DNA of 64,000 nt from Rhizosphaericola mali. GTDB lineage: Bacteria; Bacteroidota; Bacteroidia; Chitinophagales; Chitinophagaceae. Shown here piece by piece: positions 19,108-63,470 of the stretch. Every line of letters begins with the position of its first letter. Position 1 is the first letter of the stretch. Under the pieces are notes generated by a model. It was not told where the DNA came from. It saw nothing but the letters and a program-made list of their open reading frames with translations, and did no database searches. The translations under genes were made by a program, and so were the position numbers. The DNA is taken from the NCBI RefSeq assembly GCF_004337365.2, contig NZ_CP044016.1:62001-126000 (forward strand), in the 5' to 3' direction.

Positions 19108-20994
19108 TTAATAAATCGAATTGTATGGGTCGCTATTAAGTTGTACAATGTCTGGCTTATTTACATAGTTGGTATTAAATCTAAATCGTAAATTGGCAGT
19201 CATCCCAATTTTAAATTGATTTAAGCCAGGAACTCTCTTAGGGAAATAGAGAGACCGCACTTCTATAGTTCCGAATACTAAATTTTCATTTCTTATCCGA
19301 AAACCTGGTCCAAATCCAGTGTATAATGCAGTTCTTTGTAGATTTCCTTTAGGCGGTGTGAGTAGGGATAGATCTCCCGCCATAAATGGTGCAATCAGAA
19401 ATCCGAAAATCTTTTTGGGTGTATAAGCAATCGTTTCAGAATGAAAAGTAAGCCTCCGACTTCCAATAGTGGAATCCAATCCGAAATTTCTCAATCCGTA
19501 TTGAGAATTATTAATTTTTAATGGATCAAGGGTACGCCTATTAATAATTTCTGAATAGCTAAATCTAAATATTTGTCGAATTTTAGTTTGATTTCTATAA
19601 ATAACTCTACTGTAAAATGTGGCTCCCATGATATATCCAAAATCTCTGAGTCCTTGCTGTATAAAGGTTCCTCCTTTTAGAAAATATTGTAATATATCAC
19701 CTTGGGAGGACAAATTATATTTATTCAAATCCCAACCAATATAGGGTCTCGAAGTATTTAATTGTCTAAACCAGCCTCCAATCAAACTATAACTGTGCCC
19801 ATAAGGAATATCCTCCGTCGTACCAAAACCATAGAAATATCTTGTTTGGTAAAAGTTTTGTTTGAAAAAAGTCAATTGTGCCAATGCTCCTTGACGTGAA
19901 TCCGTCATGTAATTAAATCCATTGGTAATCTGTGTAGGTGCATTGTGAAAAGTGTATTTCATATAACGAACAGAAAGTAAAGTACGCGCACGATTTCTTT
20001 CATCTGTTAAATATTTTTTTATACCAAGATTGATTCCTCCCCATATATCAAAAGTGGTATAGTTATATTTATAATAGCGACCGTCTTCTATAAGATTGGA
20101 ATATACATTATGGGTCTTTGCTTTACTCAGAATAAGTCCTCCAGTAAATTTTTTATATTGAGAAACTAAAGGTCTTGATAATTCAAATGTTGTAGATTCT
20201 TCATTTCGATCTCCTGTGACTATATTTTTCCCGACACTGGATGCCATGATGCGCATATCTGCAAATGATCCAAATAAATTATAGTATCGATAGGTAAATT
20301 CCGCTCCAGCTCTTGGTTTACGACCATTGTCAATAAATGGCATGTATTGAATAGATTGCCCCAATCCTCCTAAATTCATTTCTGCGACTGTAAATCTTTG
20401 TGTACTAGCAGACAAGGACCCAATGCTACCAGTAATACTAAATAAATCTTTTGTGACTACCGTAATATCGATAGAATCAGAATTGCCAGGAATGGTATCG
20501 ACTATAATCCTAGCATCACGAATAAATGGAATCGTACGATAAAAACGCTCATTATCCGCGATGACTGTTGGATAAAATTGCTCGCCAGAATGGAAAAAAA
20601 GGTTTTTCTTAATTACACTTGGGCGTGACATTCTATGTAATTTGGTCAAAATATTCGTGCCAAAATATTTTTTCTTCTGCGTAGAATCCTCCATATTTTG
20701 GTAAAAATTCAATTCTGTGAATTTAATATTTCGAATTACTTTCCCTAAATACCTTGAAAATCGCAATTGATTATTGAGAAGTGTTAAATTCAATGTACTC
20801 GCTGTATCGCGCACGGTTACATTGTGTTTGGTAAATGGATCACTTAACTTTTTAAATATGGGATTTTTATGATTTTCTGTTTTTTGCAGATGGGTTGTAT
20901 CTACAGTTTGGCTCATCCCTTCCTTTGTGAAAATGAATACCGAAAGGATGACAATTATCCCAATGTAAAATATGGTGAACCTTTTTGCCAACAA
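19108..20994 (-). CDS. BamA/TamA-like outer-membrane beta-barrel protein
   Basis: 628 residues with an N-terminal hydrophobic signal ending near MSQTVD (about residue 30). Residues 85-190 resemble POTRA modules (VIRNIKFTELNFYQ, PFIRDARIIVDTIPG, DSIDITVVTKDLFS). The remaining 430 residues are amphipathic beta-strands rich in Tyr and Phe, as in surface-antigen barrels. It would reside in the outer membrane, perhaps aiding protein or lipid insertion. The exact function is unknown. It stops 2 bp after the convergent dehydrogenase gene and is divergent from the his operon. Confidence 0.8.
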   Translation of the reverse strand: MLAKRFTIFYIGIIVILSVFIFTKEGMSQTVDTTHLQKTENHKNPIFKKLSDPFTKHNVTVRDTASTLNLTLLNNQLRFSRYLGKVIRNIKFTELNFYQNMEDSTQKKKYFGTNILTKLHRMSRPSVIKKNLFFHSGEQFYPTVIADNERFYRTIPFIRDARIIVDTIPGNSDSIDITVVTKDLFSITGSIGSLSASTQRFTVAEMNLGGLGQSIQYMPFIDNGRKPRAGAEFTYRYYNLFGSFADMRIMASSVGKNIVTGDRNEESTTFELSRPLVSQYKKFTGGLILSKAKTHNVYSNLIEDGRYYKYNYTTFDIWGGINLGIKKYLTDERNRARTLLSVRYMKYTFHNAPTQITNGFNYMTDSRQGALAQLTFFKQNFYQTRYFYGFGTTEDIPYGHSYSLIGGWFRQLNTSRPYIGWDLNKYNLSSQGDILQYFLKGGTFIQQGLRDFGYIMGATFYSRVIYRNQTKIRQIFRFSYSEIINRRTLDPLKINNSQYGLRNFGLDSTIGSRRLTFHSETIAYTPKKIFGFLIAPFMAGDLSLLTPPKGNLQRTALYTGFGPGFRIRNENLVFGTIEVRSLYFPKRVPGLNQFKIGMTANLRFRFNTNYVNKPDIVQLNSDPYNSIY

Positions 20995-21066
20995 GATTCT
21001 AAAATACAGAATCTTACCGAATCATTAATTTTTTCTAAAAAAAGAAAACAATTTAATCTTTTCCTT

Positions 21067-21074
21067 TACATTTG
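21067..21074 (+). promoter_or_regulatory. -7 promoter element of the his operon
   Basis: TACATTTG matches TAnnTTTG and lies 4 bases before the leader-peptide ATG at 21079, so transcription would begin at or beside that start codon. No clear -33 TTTG is visible. Confidence 0.5.
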
Positions 21075-21078
21075 CCTC

Positions 21079-21126
21079 ATGAATACAAACATACATATCC
21101 ATCATCATGACTTTTCCTTTAGGTAG
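21079..21126 (+). CDS. hisL: Histidine operon leader peptide
   Basis: A 15-residue ORF, MNTNIHIHHHDFSFR, with four His codons within five triplets (residues 6, 8, 9 and 10). It lies directly upstream of a terminator and hisG. The ribosome would stall on the His codons when charged tRNA-His is scarce. The stop codon (21124-21126) lies inside the proposed antiterminator strand, so normal termination of translation would cover that strand. I identified it from position and composition, not from similarity to a known peptide. Confidence 0.85.
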   Translation: MNTNIHIHHHDFSFR

Positions 21127-21194
21127 GCCTGGTGAGATAATGTATTTATTATTCCAAATTATTATTAAGGCTTACAGCGATGTAAGCCTTTTTT
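21123..21194 (+). promoter_or_regulatory. His-operon transcription attenuator (antiterminator and terminator)
   Basis: The terminator is AAGGCTTACA (21167-21176), loop GCGA, TGTAAGCCTT (21181-21190), then TTTT. The alternative strand GTAGGCCT (21123-21130), overlapping the leader stop codon, can pair with AGGCTTAC (21168-21175) through 8 bp with one G-T wobble, which would break the terminator. Stalling on the His codons leaves GTAGGCCT free (readthrough); reaching the stop hides it (termination). hisG starts 22 bases after the hairpin. Confidence 0.85.
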
Positions 21195-21215
21195 ATTACA
21201 CTCAACTGAAAAAAA

Positions 21216-22109
21216 ATGAGCTCAAATGAAATTTCTTCTCTAATAGAAGAAAAAAATGTTTTAAGATTGGCAATTCAAAAATCAGGAAGATTGCACGACG
21301 ACTCTATGAAATTGTTGAAAGAGTGCGGCATCGATATTAGCAATGGCATCAACAAATTAAAAAGTGAAGCGGCTAACTTTCCTATAGAATTATATTTTTT
21401 ACGTGATGATGATATTCCTCAGTATGTAGAAGATGGTGTGGCTGATATTGGTTTCGTCGGGGAAAATGTAGTATTTGAAAAAAAGAAATCCGTTGAGATT
21501 ACTGAGAAATTAGGATTTGGAAAATGCCGTCTGTCTTTCGCTGTTAGAAAAGGAGAGGAGTTTGGCGGAGCGACTAGCCTACAAGGCAAAAGAATTGCGA
21601 CAAGTTATCCCGTTTTGGTACAGGATTATTTAGATAAATATAATGTAAAAGCCGATATTCAAGAGATCAGCGGAAGTGTAGAAATCGCTCCTGGTATAGG
21701 TTTGGCAGATGTTATCTGTGATTTGGTTAGTAGCGGTTCTACTTTATTTATGAATGGTTTGAAAGAAGCGGATGTGATCCTACAATCTCAAGCAGTGTTG
21801 ATTACCAACCAAAATATTACGCCAATCAAACGCGCAATTTTGGAATCATTAATTTTCAGAATTCAAGCGGTTAGAAAAGCAAAAAATAACAAATACGTTT
21901 TGATGAATGCGCCAAATGAAGCGCTTCCTGAGATTGAAAAATTACTTCCCGGTATGAAAAGTCCAACGATTTTGCCTTTGGCTGTAGAGGGTTGGAGCAG
22001 TATTCACGTAGTATTAAGTGAAACTCAATTTTGGGAAATTGTTCAAGATTTGAAAAAATTGGGTGCAGAAGGTATATTGGTATTGCCTATTGAAAAAATG
22101 GTACTATAA
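21216..22109 (+). CDS. hisG: ATP phosphoribosyltransferase HisG (long form)
   Basis: 297 residues, the length of the long HisG form with a C-terminal regulatory ACT-like domain (about 225-297), which normally gives feedback inhibition by histidine without HisZ. Landmarks are LRLAIQKSGRLHDDSMKLL near residue 16, DIGFVGENVV near 78 and the PRPP-binding segment GIGLADVICDLVSSGSTL near 165. It catalyses the first step of histidine synthesis, ATP + PRPP to phosphoribosyl-ATP. It is the first gene after the attenuator and lies 24 bp before hisD. Confidence 0.97.
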   Translation: MSSNEISSLIEEKNVLRLAIQKSGRLHDDSMKLLKECGIDISNGINKLKSEAANFPIELYFLRDDDIPQYVEDGVADIGFVGENVVFEKKKSVEITEKLGFGKCRLSFAVRKGEEFGGATSLQGKRIATSYPVLVQDYLDKYNVKADIQEISGSVEIAPGIGLADVICDLVSSGSTLFMNGLKEADVILQSQAVLITNQNITPIKRAILESLIFRIQAVRKAKNNKYVLMNAPNEALPEIEKLLPGMKSPTILPLAVEGWSSIHVVLSETQFWEIVQDLKKLGAEGILVLPIEKMVL

Positions 22110-22133
22110 TTTTAGTTAAAATATTTTATTCAA

Positions 22134-23411
22134 ATGAATGTTTATTATCAACCCAATCCAAGCGAATGGGACGAAATTATTAAAAGACCAACGCTGGACA
22201 CGACCGCTTTGAAAGAAAAAGTGTCTGGCGTATTACAAGATATTCAAGCAAATGGCGATCAAGCAGTATTGAAATACACGTCTTTATTTGATCAAGTTGA
22301 ATTGGACAATAATGTAGTTACAACTTCCGAAATTCAAGAAGCGGTCGATTCTTTACCCGAAGAATTAAAAGCAGCCATTCAAAAAGCGGCAGCCAATATT
22401 CAAAAATTTCACGAAGTGCAATTGCAACCCATAGAAAAGATTGAGGTGATGCCGGGGATTGTATGTTGGCGTAAATCAGTTGGAATTGAGAAAGTCGGTT
22501 TATATATTCCAGGAGGATCTGCTCCTTTATTTTCTACTATATTGATGTTGGCAATTCCTGCGAAAATCGCTGGTTGCAAAGAAATTATCTTGTGTTCGCC
22601 TCCGAATAAATCAGGCAAATTGCATCCTGCGATTTTGTACGCAGCAAATTTGGTTGGCGTTACTAAAATATTCAAAGTTGGTGGTGTACAAGCGATTGGC
22701 GCGATGGCTTTTGGAACGGAAACTATTCCAAAAGTTTCTAAAATATTTGGACCGGGAAATCAATTTGTTATGTGCGCCAAACAATTAATTCAAGAGGCTG
22801 GCGTGGCGATTGATATGCCTGCTGGACCGAGTGAAGTATGCGTATTGGCGGATGCAACTGCTGTACCTAGTTTTGTGGCAGCGGATTTACTTTCTCAAGC
22901 GGAACATGGACCAGATAGTCAAGTGTTTTTGATCTCTACAGATAAAGCACTTTTAGATAAAGTTCAAACTGAAATAGCAAAGCAATTAGCAGTATTACCA
23001 CGTAAAGATTTGGCGGAAAAATCTTTGAATAATAGCAAATTGATTTATGTGGATTCCATACAAGATGCGATTGATTTGGCAAATAAATATGCACCAGAAC
23101 ATTTGATTATTTCTTGTGAAAATGCTGAAAATATTGGCGAACAAATCATCAACGCGGGTTCTATTTTCTTGGGCAATTATTCTCCAGAAAGTGTGGGAGA
23201 CTATGCGAGTGGTACGAATCATACCTTGCCGACAAATGGTTATGCAACAGCTTACAGCGGAGTGAGCGTCGATAGTTTTGTCAAAAAAATCACTTTCCAA
23301 AAATTGGAAACAAAAGGTTTGGAAGATATAGCATCTACCGTAATTGCAATGGCAGAAGCGGAAGGTTTACAAGCACATGCCAATGCGGTAAAAGTGCGTA
23401 TCGCAAAATAA
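22134..23411 (+). CDS. hisD: Histidinol dehydrogenase HisD
   Basis: 425 residues, full length. It oxidises L-histidinol to L-histidine in two NAD-dependent, zinc-dependent steps. The signature runs through KIFGPGNQFV and IDMPAGPSEV (about 205-235). SQAEHGPDSQ near 260 holds zinc and active-site ligands, and the later SGTNHTLPT segment holds another His. It is coupled closely between hisG and hisC, so it is under the same attenuator. Confidence 0.97.
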   Translation: MNVYYQPNPSEWDEIIKRPTLDTTALKEKVSGVLQDIQANGDQAVLKYTSLFDQVELDNNVVTTSEIQEAVDSLPEELKAAIQKAAANIQKFHEVQLQPIEKIEVMPGIVCWRKSVGIEKVGLYIPGGSAPLFSTILMLAIPAKIAGCKEIILCSPPNKSGKLHPAILYAANLVGVTKIFKVGGVQAIGAMAFGTETIPKVSKIFGPGNQFVMCAKQLIQEAGVAIDMPAGPSEVCVLADATAVPSFVAADLLSQAEHGPDSQVFLISTDKALLDKVQTEIAKQLAVLPRKDLAEKSLNNSKLIYVDSIQDAIDLANKYAPEHLIISCENAENIGEQIINAGSIFLGNYSPESVGDYASGTNHTLPTNGYATAYSGVSVDSFVKKITFQKLETKGLEDIASTVIAMAEAEGLQAHANAVKVRIAK

Positions 23412-23447
23412 TTGTCATTTATTCAAAACGGAAAACAAACTTCAATT

Positions 23448-24500
23448 ATGGCTTTTAATTTAAATAGTTTAGTTAAAGAGAATATTCTCAAATTGGCGCC
23501 TTATTCTTCTGCTCGAGATGAATTTTCAGGCGACGCCAAGGTTTTTTTGGACGCAAATGAAAATAGTTTTGGTTCGCCTTTGAATCGTAATTACAATCGT
23601 TATCCTGATCCACACCAAAAACAATTGAAGAAAAAATTAGCCACCATCAAGAATGTGGAGGCAAATCAAATATTTCTTGGAAATGGTAGTGATGAATGTA
23701 TTGACCTTTTATACCGTTGTTTTTGTAAAAGTGGCGTGGATAATGTGATCATTTGCCCTCCAACTTATGGTATGTATGAAGTGAGTGCCAATATCAATGA
23801 GGTTGATTTGAAAAGAGTGGATTTGGATGAAAATTTCCAATTACGTTTAGCCGAAATCGAAAATGCCATTGACGCCAATACTAAATTGATCTGGATTTGC
23901 TCGCCAAATAATCCTTCGGGTAATTTATTGAACGAAGCAGATATCAAAACTTTATTATCCAAATTTTCTGGAATTGTTGTTGTGGATGAGGCATATATTG
24001 ATTTTACAAATAGCGTTTCTTTCAATCAATATTTGTCCCAATATCCCAATCTTGTAGTGATGCAAACCTTTAGTAAAGCTTGGGGGTTAGCTGGTTTGCG
24101 TTTAGGGATGGCGTTTGCGTCTATGGAGATTATAGCGATTATGGATAAGGTAAAACCTCCTTATAATATTAATCAGGTTACACAAGAATTAGCATTGCAG
24201 GCTTTGGAAAATGAAAACCAAATGTTGGAAATGCAATCAGAAATTGTAACTTTAAGGCAATCTTTAGCGGAGACACTTTTGCAACTGCCTATGGTTGACA
24301 CTGTTTATCCTTCAGATGCGAATTTTTTATTGGTAAAAGTTAAAGATCCAGCGGGTTTATATCAATTTTTGATAGACAAAGGATTGGTTGTGAGAGACCG
24401 TCATAAGGTTATTTTATGCGATGGCTGTTTGCGTATTACGATAGGTACACTATCCGAAAATGAGGAGTTGATCAACTTAATGCACGAAGCGTCTATCTAA
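23448..24500 (+). CDS. hisC: Histidinol-phosphate aminotransferase HisC
   Basis: 350 residues from the ATG at 23448; an upstream TTG at 23412 directly abuts the hisD stop but would add 12 untypical residues. It is a PLP fold-type I aminotransferase. FLGNGSDECIDLL is near residue 85, the PLP aspartate and tyrosine lie in VVVDEAYIDF, and the Schiff-base Lys210 is in TFSKAWGLAGLRLG. It converts imidazole-acetol phosphate to histidinol phosphate. It closes this his cluster; hisB, H, A, F and I are not downstream, because the next gene is an M16 peptidase, so the rest of the pathway must be encoded elsewhere. Confidence 0.96.
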   Translation: MAFNLNSLVKENILKLAPYSSARDEFSGDAKVFLDANENSFGSPLNRNYNRYPDPHQKQLKKKLATIKNVEANQIFLGNGSDECIDLLYRCFCKSGVDNVIICPPTYGMYEVSANINEVDLKRVDLDENFQLRLAEIENAIDANTKLIWICSPNNPSGNLLNEADIKTLLSKFSGIVVVDEAYIDFTNSVSFNQYLSQYPNLVVMQTFSKAWGLAGLRLGMAFASMEIIAIMDKVKPPYNINQVTQELALQALENENQMLEMQSEIVTLRQSLAETLLQLPMVDTVYPSDANFLLVKVKDPAGLYQFLIDKGLVVRDRHKVILCDGCLRITIGTLSENEELINLMHEASI

Positions 24501-63055: not shown

Positions 63056-63094
63056 AAAAAAGCGCAAGTAAATTTAATTTACTTGCGCTTTTTT
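63056..63094. terminator. Terminator between the hypothetical gene and tmRNA
   Basis: A stem of GCGCAAGTAAA with TTTACTTGCGC flanked by A and T runs (63056-63094), just 2 bp from the tmRNA 3' end. It is oriented to stop both convergent transcripts. Confidence 0.88.
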
Positions 63095-63096
63095 TG

Positions 63097-63470
63097 TGGA
63101 GCTGAGGGGGATCGAACCCCTGTCCAAACGTGGTCATCATAAGTCTTCTACATGCTTAGTTCCTTATTATTTGTCGGTAATTAACAGGACAGAAACCAAC
63201 CAATTAATCACTTAGCTGCATAATCTTTTGTGTCAGGCACAGCCTACTAACACAGCATCCCGTTTTATTTGTTGAGTCGGCGGCGGAGCTTGGTAACAGA
63301 ACAACCTGCTCAACGCGGCCCTAATGACTGATTAATCACTGATTAAGCAGCCATGGCATAATTGTTATTGCCATTTAAAGTTTGAATATTCAGATTTGAG
63401 TGCTAATTATACAACGCACTGCATGCTTATACCTACCACTCCTCACGCTGTCGAAACCAAGTACAGCCCC
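63097..63470 (-). ncRNA. ssrA: tmRNA (ssrA)
   Basis: About 374 bases on the minus strand. The 5' end GGGGCTGTACTTGGTTTCGAC and the 3' end ...GTTCGATCCCCCTCAGCTCC-A form the tRNA-Ala-like acceptor (GGGGCTG with CAGCTCC). The tag reading frame is GNNNYAMAA followed by TAA (63345 down to about 63372), with the AA end recognised by proteases. It rescues stalled ribosomes with SmpB. CCA is not encoded. Confidence 0.95.

Follow-up and report, generated by a model that had tools for sequence, protein, structure and literature searches.

The genes hisG, hisD and hisC of Rhizosphaericola mali are very probably governed by a ribosome-mediated transcription attenuator that lies in the leader region directly 5' of hisG. 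The region was analyzed within a 64,000-nucleotide stretch of the genome (contig NZ_CP044016.1, positions 62,001 to 126,000), hereafter the window, whose numbering is used throughout unless a genome coordinate is given. The leader displays the features of the class: an open reading frame in which codons for the end product form a run, an intrinsic terminator, and an exclusive antiterminator that has been conserved through change between families (Table 1). An earlier note on this DNA had read the region as a his attenuator, and this reading is supported by the sequence comparisons described below. Each of the elements it named is present: the 15-residue leader with four His codons, the terminator stem with its T run, the 8-bp antiterminator strand over the leader stop codon, and the -7 box, which is separated from the leader ATG at 21079 by only 4 nt (CCTC).

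Table 1. Predicted elements of the his leader region and the genes that follow it (window coordinates)
Feature	Position	Strand	Basis or remark
-7 promoter box TACATTTG, consensus TAnnTTTG	21067..21074	+	Sequence reading
Leader peptide gene MNTNIHIHHHDFSFR, 15 codons	21079..21126	+	Stop codon TAG at 21124
Sensor codons H-I-H-H-H	21094..21108	+	Four His codons, at 21094, 21100, 21103 and 21106
Protector hairpin, 5' strand (Ile/His codons)	21091..21107	+	Minimum-energy fold
Protector hairpin, 3' strand	21130..21145	+	Adjoins the antiterminator strand on its 3' side, one base in common
Antiterminator strand GTAGGCCT (segment 2), on leader stop codon	21123..21130	+	Near copy of terminator 3' arm
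Inner antiterminator helix, 5' strand	21131..21135	+	Partner 21162-21166 in the stalled-ribosome fold
Inner antiterminator helix, 3' strand	21162..21166	+	Fold
Terminator 5' arm AAGGCTTACA (segment 3)	21167..21176	+	
Terminator 3' arm TGTAAGCCTT (segment 4)	21181..21190	+	T run of six T, 21189-21194
hisG	21216..22109	+	NCBIfam TIGR00070, above cut-off
hisD	22134..23411	+	NCBIfam TIGR00069, above cut-off
hisC, TTG start as listed	23412..24500	+	NCBIfam TIGR01141, above cut-off

Conservation of the His run among relatives had been set beforehand as a test of the earlier note. Using the window's HisG as the query, upstream regions of hisG were collected from 143 matching genomes among 195 searched in the window's own family and from 325 matching genomes among 392 searched across the phylum. 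From the named genome contigs, the best 80 of 153 relatives were kept, all of which were counted as f1; 80 more upstream stretches were chosen by hand, 73 so as to cover the family labels in the phylum search and 7 from the search within the family, which makes the sample non-random. The labels f1, f2, etc. are those assigned by the search tool; f1 is the window's family and presumably corresponds to Chitinophagaceae, judging from the loci named in searches with the same query (Chitinophagaceae, Sediminibacterium, Hydrotalea, Chitinophaga, Segetibacter, and similar). The resulting 215 loci gave 212 distinct upstream regions after removal of 3 exact duplicates; the upstream sequence of one region, L061, is only 154 nt long. 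Since some loci represent the same genomes twice, the set was also thinned by common 8-mers to 162 regions.

A leader was scored as an open reading frame of up to 60 residues with at least three His within 7 residues, no more than 350 nt from hisG. By this rule, a His-run leader is found in 198 of the 212 distinct regions (118 of 121 in f1) and in 150 of the 162 regions of the thinned set (75 of 77 in f1), compared with 5 of 212 on the opposite strand and 42 of 1,060 dinucleotide shuffles. The shuffle rate implies that about 8 of the 198 leaders could be chance occurrences; on these counts, a chance origin of the His-run leader as such appears excluded. The 14 regions without a leader by the rule include all three from f19 and both from f48, and at L107 the leader lies beyond the 350-nt limit. 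No His-run leader was found in any of 30 regions from f18, a family with divergent HisG (approximately 30% identity); in ten upstream stretches inspected there, hisG is apparently located close behind another gene. In the window's genome, the hisG site is the sole strong match to the element model (88.4 bits; the next scores 35.8), among 21 matches at E values up to 1.

Several unusual leaders were seen in the course of this survey. Two f1 genomes (L211 and L212) carry f5-type leaders (LHHHHFHTC and similar), in L212 along with an f5-type terminator, AACCCGTCTGA; these could reflect either a deep branch or acquisition of the his region by transfer. At L192-L194 and L204 (f24 and f43), long His-rich leaders of 25 to 32 residues lack a terminator scoring at least 9.

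The terminator in the window consists of a 10-bp stem, a 4-nt loop, and six T. Its fold of -13.9 kcal/mol (z = -5.5) was equaled by none of 200 shuffles, and the fold of the whole leader (-28.6 kcal/mol, z = -3.5) by one of 200. A stem-plus-T-run scan detected a terminator after 172 of the 198 leaders at a score of at least 9 and none after the other 26. At a score of at least 10, it is present in 112 of 118 f1 leaders, in all 24 from f5 and all 10 from f17, but in 0 of 4 from f3, 0 of 3 from f24, and 3 of 8 from f8. For the analysis of covariation, 60 of 113 f1 elements were picked at up to 85% identity, and the alignment was reduced to 58 by dropping one element from another family and one that looked foreign. 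In this alignment, 98.5% of the stem cells are paired, 6 of the 9 pairs have changed on both sides, and sliding the partner lowers the pairing to 26 to 65%. On four of five measures, the covariation was not reached by any of 500 shuffles; the fifth, the count of further pair types, was matched by 169 of 500.

The leaders with no recognized terminator, and an f8 set in which the stop codon lies within a hairpin and no terminator is seen, leave some room for control at the level of hisG translation or by Rho instead of by an intrinsic terminator. For the window, this appears quite improbable, as it has a strong terminator with a fitting antiterminator, and the f1 leaders nearly all carry a terminator, at the frequency given above.

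The f8 leaders form a second type in their own right, found in 17 of 35 upstream regions inspected in this family (L117, L120, L122-L124, L262, L264, L267, L268, L270, L271, L275, L277, L279, L280, L284, and L287). These leaders are mostly about 27 residues long and end in HHFHHSS or a similar sequence, with the stop codon located within a hairpin, e.g., CATTCCTCC-TGA-GGAGGAA. In many of them, ACATATCGCCC and GGCTGT...ACAGCC are found downstream; an intrinsic terminator was seen in none. Rho or translation of hisG might be the mechanism here.

By reading, GTAGGCCT at 21123-21130 can pair with AGGCTTAC at 21168-21175 through 7 Watson-Crick pairs and one G-U. The antiterminator fold alone is unexceptional in the window (z = -1.7; 13 of 200 shuffles fold equally well), and its case therefore rests on the relatives. 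There, the leader end repeats the terminator 3' arm almost exactly; this copy mostly reads GGTAGGC or GGTAAGC in f1, and in other families it differs and matches each one's own terminator. This match was evaluated by swapping: each of 157 distinct leader ends was compared with 30 that were sampled from other families. Without correction for relatedness, the mean pairing energy was -14.05 kcal/mol for a leader end with its own terminator arm versus -9.21 kcal/mol for swapped ends; 151 of the 157 beat the swapped mean, and in 113 of them no more than one tenth of the swapped ends did as well. The median was better in 14 of 15 families, the exception being f12.

Within f1, 94.4% of the cells in the antiterminator helix are paired, compared with 21 to 53% in slid versions. 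Because this helix is nearly invariant, its covariation does not rise above shuffles (the score of 0.181 was reached by 92 of 500, the number of doubly changed cells by 377 of 500), so that the proof of pairing comes from the comparison between families. Conservation of the two pairings, the second test attached to the earlier note, thus held for the terminator, which covaries, and for the co-change of antiterminator and terminator between families; inside f1, the antiterminator varies too little for its covariation to exceed that of shuffles. The terminator and the antiterminator are mutually exclusive by sequence.

The position of the antiterminator relative to the His codons is also constrained. 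Counted from the first nucleotide of the last His codon in the cluster, the strand starts exactly 16 nt on in 64 of 110 f1 loci and 13 to 17 nt on in 96 of 110; the window has 17. Over all families (163 of 172 loci, those with a helix of at least 6 pairs), the spacing is at least 13 nt in 138, 10 to 12 nt in 14, and below 10 nt in 11, and the antiterminator strand overlaps the footprint (-14 to +15) of a ribosome at the stop codon in 160 of 163. These data bear on one alternative, a plain constitutive terminator or 5' hairpin that is preceded by a His-rich frame by chance. A lone terminator would covary too, and shuffled regions occasionally yield a His-run frame at the rate given above; however, such an arrangement gives no reason for leaders in 198 of 212 regions, for the matched pairing of leader end and terminator, or for the 16-nt spacing, and we consider it very unlikely.

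An additional, inner antiterminator helix is supported by a comparison of sequences from 56 f1 elements, in which the two stretches were kept apart by a split at the midpoint: the energy is -6.31 kcal/mol for own partners versus -5.22 kcal/mol for swapped ones (z = -4.4; reached by 0 of 2,000 permutations, relatedness uncorrected), with a control z of 0.3. A candidate strand 1, CUUACC of the Leu-Pro codons before the stop codon pairing with GGGUAGG, was weak by eye in the window and tempting in relatives. It was rejected, as only 77.8% of its cells are paired, double changes are not above shuffles, its covariation score was reached by 30 of 500 shuffles, and the swap gave z = -2.5 (22 of 2,000 permutations). 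Partly supported, a strand 1 before the stop codon is a minor possibility.

The earlier note held that the geometry works without extra elements. On this point it has to be amended: the minimum-energy fold of the window's leader contains a further hairpin, 21091-21107 paired with 21130-21145, which keeps the antiterminator strand in its loop. Across 56 f1 elements, pairing of the His codons with the post-stop stretch of the same leader amounts to -12.64 versus -10.91 kcal/mol for swapped stretches (z = -6.1; 0 of 2,000 permutations, relatedness uncorrected), whereas the control with the pre-terminator stretch gave z = -0.4. Such a protector would force termination whenever the leader goes untranslated. 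In the enteric trp attenuator, too, a protector pairing favors termination in the absence of translation. One might also speculate that the hairpin serves as a pause hairpin.

Folding was simulated with the ribosome at different positions. In the window, pairing of the antiterminator strand with the terminator arm was 0.99 with a ribosome at the last His codon, 0.00 with one at the stop codon, and 0.05 with none. The respective averages over 163 loci were 0.90, 0.00, and 0.53, all of these values being inflated by the choice of segment 2 as the best duplex. With the ribosome at the last His codon, pairing reached only 0.40 to 0.58 in f4, f35, and f8. Without a ribosome, the f1 average was 0.60 (0.47 for 57 dissimilar f1 elements), which suggests that the protector is strong in the window and partial in its relatives. 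In terms of geometry and folding, then, the antiterminator strand is left free by a stalled ribosome and covered by one that has reached the stop codon. For the full-length RNA at equilibrium, the terminator is favored at each ribosome position tested, so that control would have to be kinetic and decided during transcription, which is when known attenuators make their choice of fold. The computed pairing of 21123-21130 with 21168-21175 is approximately 0.96 before the terminator 3' arm is made, provided that the front edge of the ribosome is upstream of the strand.

Taken together, the attenuator would very probably work as follows. RNA polymerase would start at or very near the leader AUG, as the -7 box suggests, and a ribosome would load on this 5'-terminal AUG and translate the 15 codons of the leader. 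With charged His-tRNA at hand, it would arrive at the stop codon at 21124 and cover 21123-21130, leaving the arm 21167-21176 with its downstream partner only; the terminator would then form and transcription would stop before hisG. When His-tRNA is scarce, the ribosome is predicted to stall on codons 21100-21108, with its front edge near 21118-21120, and to break the protector, so that 21123-21130 could form its helix with 21168-21175 ahead of synthesis of the terminator 3' arm, allowing read-through. If the leader is not translated at all, the His codons would pair with 21130-21145, the antiterminator strand would stay in the loop, and the terminator would win.

As for the start of the message, 59 of 118 f1 leaders have the -7 box exactly 4 nt before the start codon and 99 have it 4 to 10 nt before; the spacer is 15 to 18 nt in 9, and no box was found in 10. 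When a leader offered several in-frame candidates, the start closest to the box was used, a choice that favors short spacers in these counts. In the thinned f1 set, the spacer is exactly 4 nt in 27 of 75 and 4 to 10 nt in 60 of 75. For comparison, a box is found 3 to 8 nt before 16 of 952 other ATGs in the same regions and 4 to 5 nt before 4 of 51 open reading frames of at least 100 residues in the window. The sequence TTTG is found upstream of the 99 f1 boxes 51 times with a gap of 16 to 22 nt, versus approximately 7.6 times per 7 gaps elsewhere (gap 23 alone gives 19), and this excess supports a real promoter in f1. By reading, TTTG is absent at a gap of 16 to 22 nt in the window itself. A scan for Escherichia coli-type promoters, a model that excludes promoters of this type, returned 4 sites, none of them at the leader. 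A Shine-Dalgarno-like 4-mer precedes the leader start in none of 67 thinned f1 members. In Flavobacterium psychrophilum, the -7 box is located at -12 to -5 according to the available text of PMC9723704; if the same holds here, +1 would fall on the A of the leader ATG. The 5' end of the message thus probably coincides with the leader AUG or lies very close to it. Such a start is unusual, given that leaderless mRNAs make up 5.5% in F. psychrophilum (PMC9723704, available text). Judging from the box positions, it is a trait of f1 and not of most other families, in which the spacer is exactly 4 nt in 3 of 80 cases and the box was not found in 32 of 80. Because the short spacer is uncommon outside f1, the attenuation mechanism does not need it.

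Two other amino acid biosynthesis genes of this genome have leaders of comparable design, both spotted by eye in upstream regions chosen on purpose. A leader with three consecutive Trp codons, MKLNNVNMIWWWHTNSFRGL, and a terminator precede trpE (G000:C1:1054708-1054832) in a layout similar to that of the hisG element, and a Phe-rich leader, MNLAGNSFGFFYFFYFTQSGSGKYC, with a terminator precedes pheA (G000:C1:2682327-2682208, minus strand). In both, the leader end contains a copy of the terminator 3' arm (-13.4 and -15.6 kcal/mol, respectively). No leader was evident by eye upstream of leuA. The his genes themselves are split: hisGDC occupies 21216-24500 of the window, and hisB is located approximately 0.97 Mb away (G000:C1:1053520-1053945), one open reading frame upstream of the trp leader and with no His leader visible upstream of it. 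The Trp and Phe runs also bear on the suggestion that the conserved product is the peptide itself, a His-rich microprotein that perhaps binds metals. Metal binding is a known ability of His-rich peptides, and the leader frame is conserved; however, its residues beyond the His run differ widely among families, its final codons lie on or next to the antiterminator strand, which co-changes with the terminator, and in the same genome the place of the His run is taken by Trp and Phe in like layout. A functional microprotein is therefore a highly improbable explanation.

As in the enteric trp attenuator, and in the enteric his attenuator as well, the leader peptide of the window is rich in the regulated amino acid, and rival terminator and antiterminator folds would be switched by the position of the ribosome (for his, see the available text of PMC3896937). 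It resembles trp further in the protector pairing that would lead to termination without translation. The hisG leader differs from both enteric systems in its sequence, its promoter type, the lack of a Shine-Dalgarno-like 4-mer (0 of the 67 thinned f1 members), its probably leaderless start, and an antiterminator strand placed on the stop codon. At gathering score, Rfam models matched only tmRNA and tRNA in the window; a tmRNA gene is located at 63094-63470 on the minus strand (146 bits). In 20900-21300, at E values up to 10, the best match was Phe_leader, at 25.8 bits versus a gathering score of 55 and aligned mainly to the terminator. The hisG leader thus matches no Rfam leader family, including the enteric His leader and the T-box.

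Within the phylum, the available text of PMC9723704 reports strong clues for leader-peptide attenuation before amino acid operons of F. psychrophilum. It also describes structured 5' elements ahead of hisG and of pheA, which are found again in other Flavobacteriaceae and match no Rfam family. The elements of the window's genome resemble these in preceding hisG and pheA, as does the hisG leader in lacking an Rfam match, and priority for the idea in Bacteroidota lies at least there. A comparative study of attenuation from 2010 (Lopatovskaya et al., cited in PMC4833913) possibly overlaps with our findings or holds priority. The hisG leader of the window differs from those of f5, which may represent flavobacteria, in that the f5 box is mostly further from the start codon or was not found. 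A precedent for a leaderless attenuator is the Sinorhizobium meliloti trpL RNA, which begins at the ATG of its leader peptide (PMC7298713, available text); it responds to another amino acid, Trp, and belongs to another phylum, and its 5' end is known, whereas that of the window is predicted. No description of this his attenuator in Chitinophagaceae, or of any leaderless his leader, was found in the literature searched. In principle the hisG leader is thus ordinary; its place is new and the way its message starts is unusual.

In a wider perspective, we lean toward the view that his attenuation is old and widespread in Bacteroidota and absent from some lineages, that each family has rewritten its antiterminator, a copy of the terminator arm placed on or close to the stop codon of the leader, in step with its terminator, and that in f1 the first transcribed nucleotide is also where translation begins, with ribosome and polymerase coupled from +1. 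If true, this would mean close coupling of transcription and translation in a phylum where Shine-Dalgarno sequences are hardly used. The common his attenuator of Bacteroidota would then offer a simple handle on whether ribosomes closely follow RNA polymerase in these bacteria, as well as on how ribosomes load without a 5' leader and without a Shine-Dalgarno sequence.
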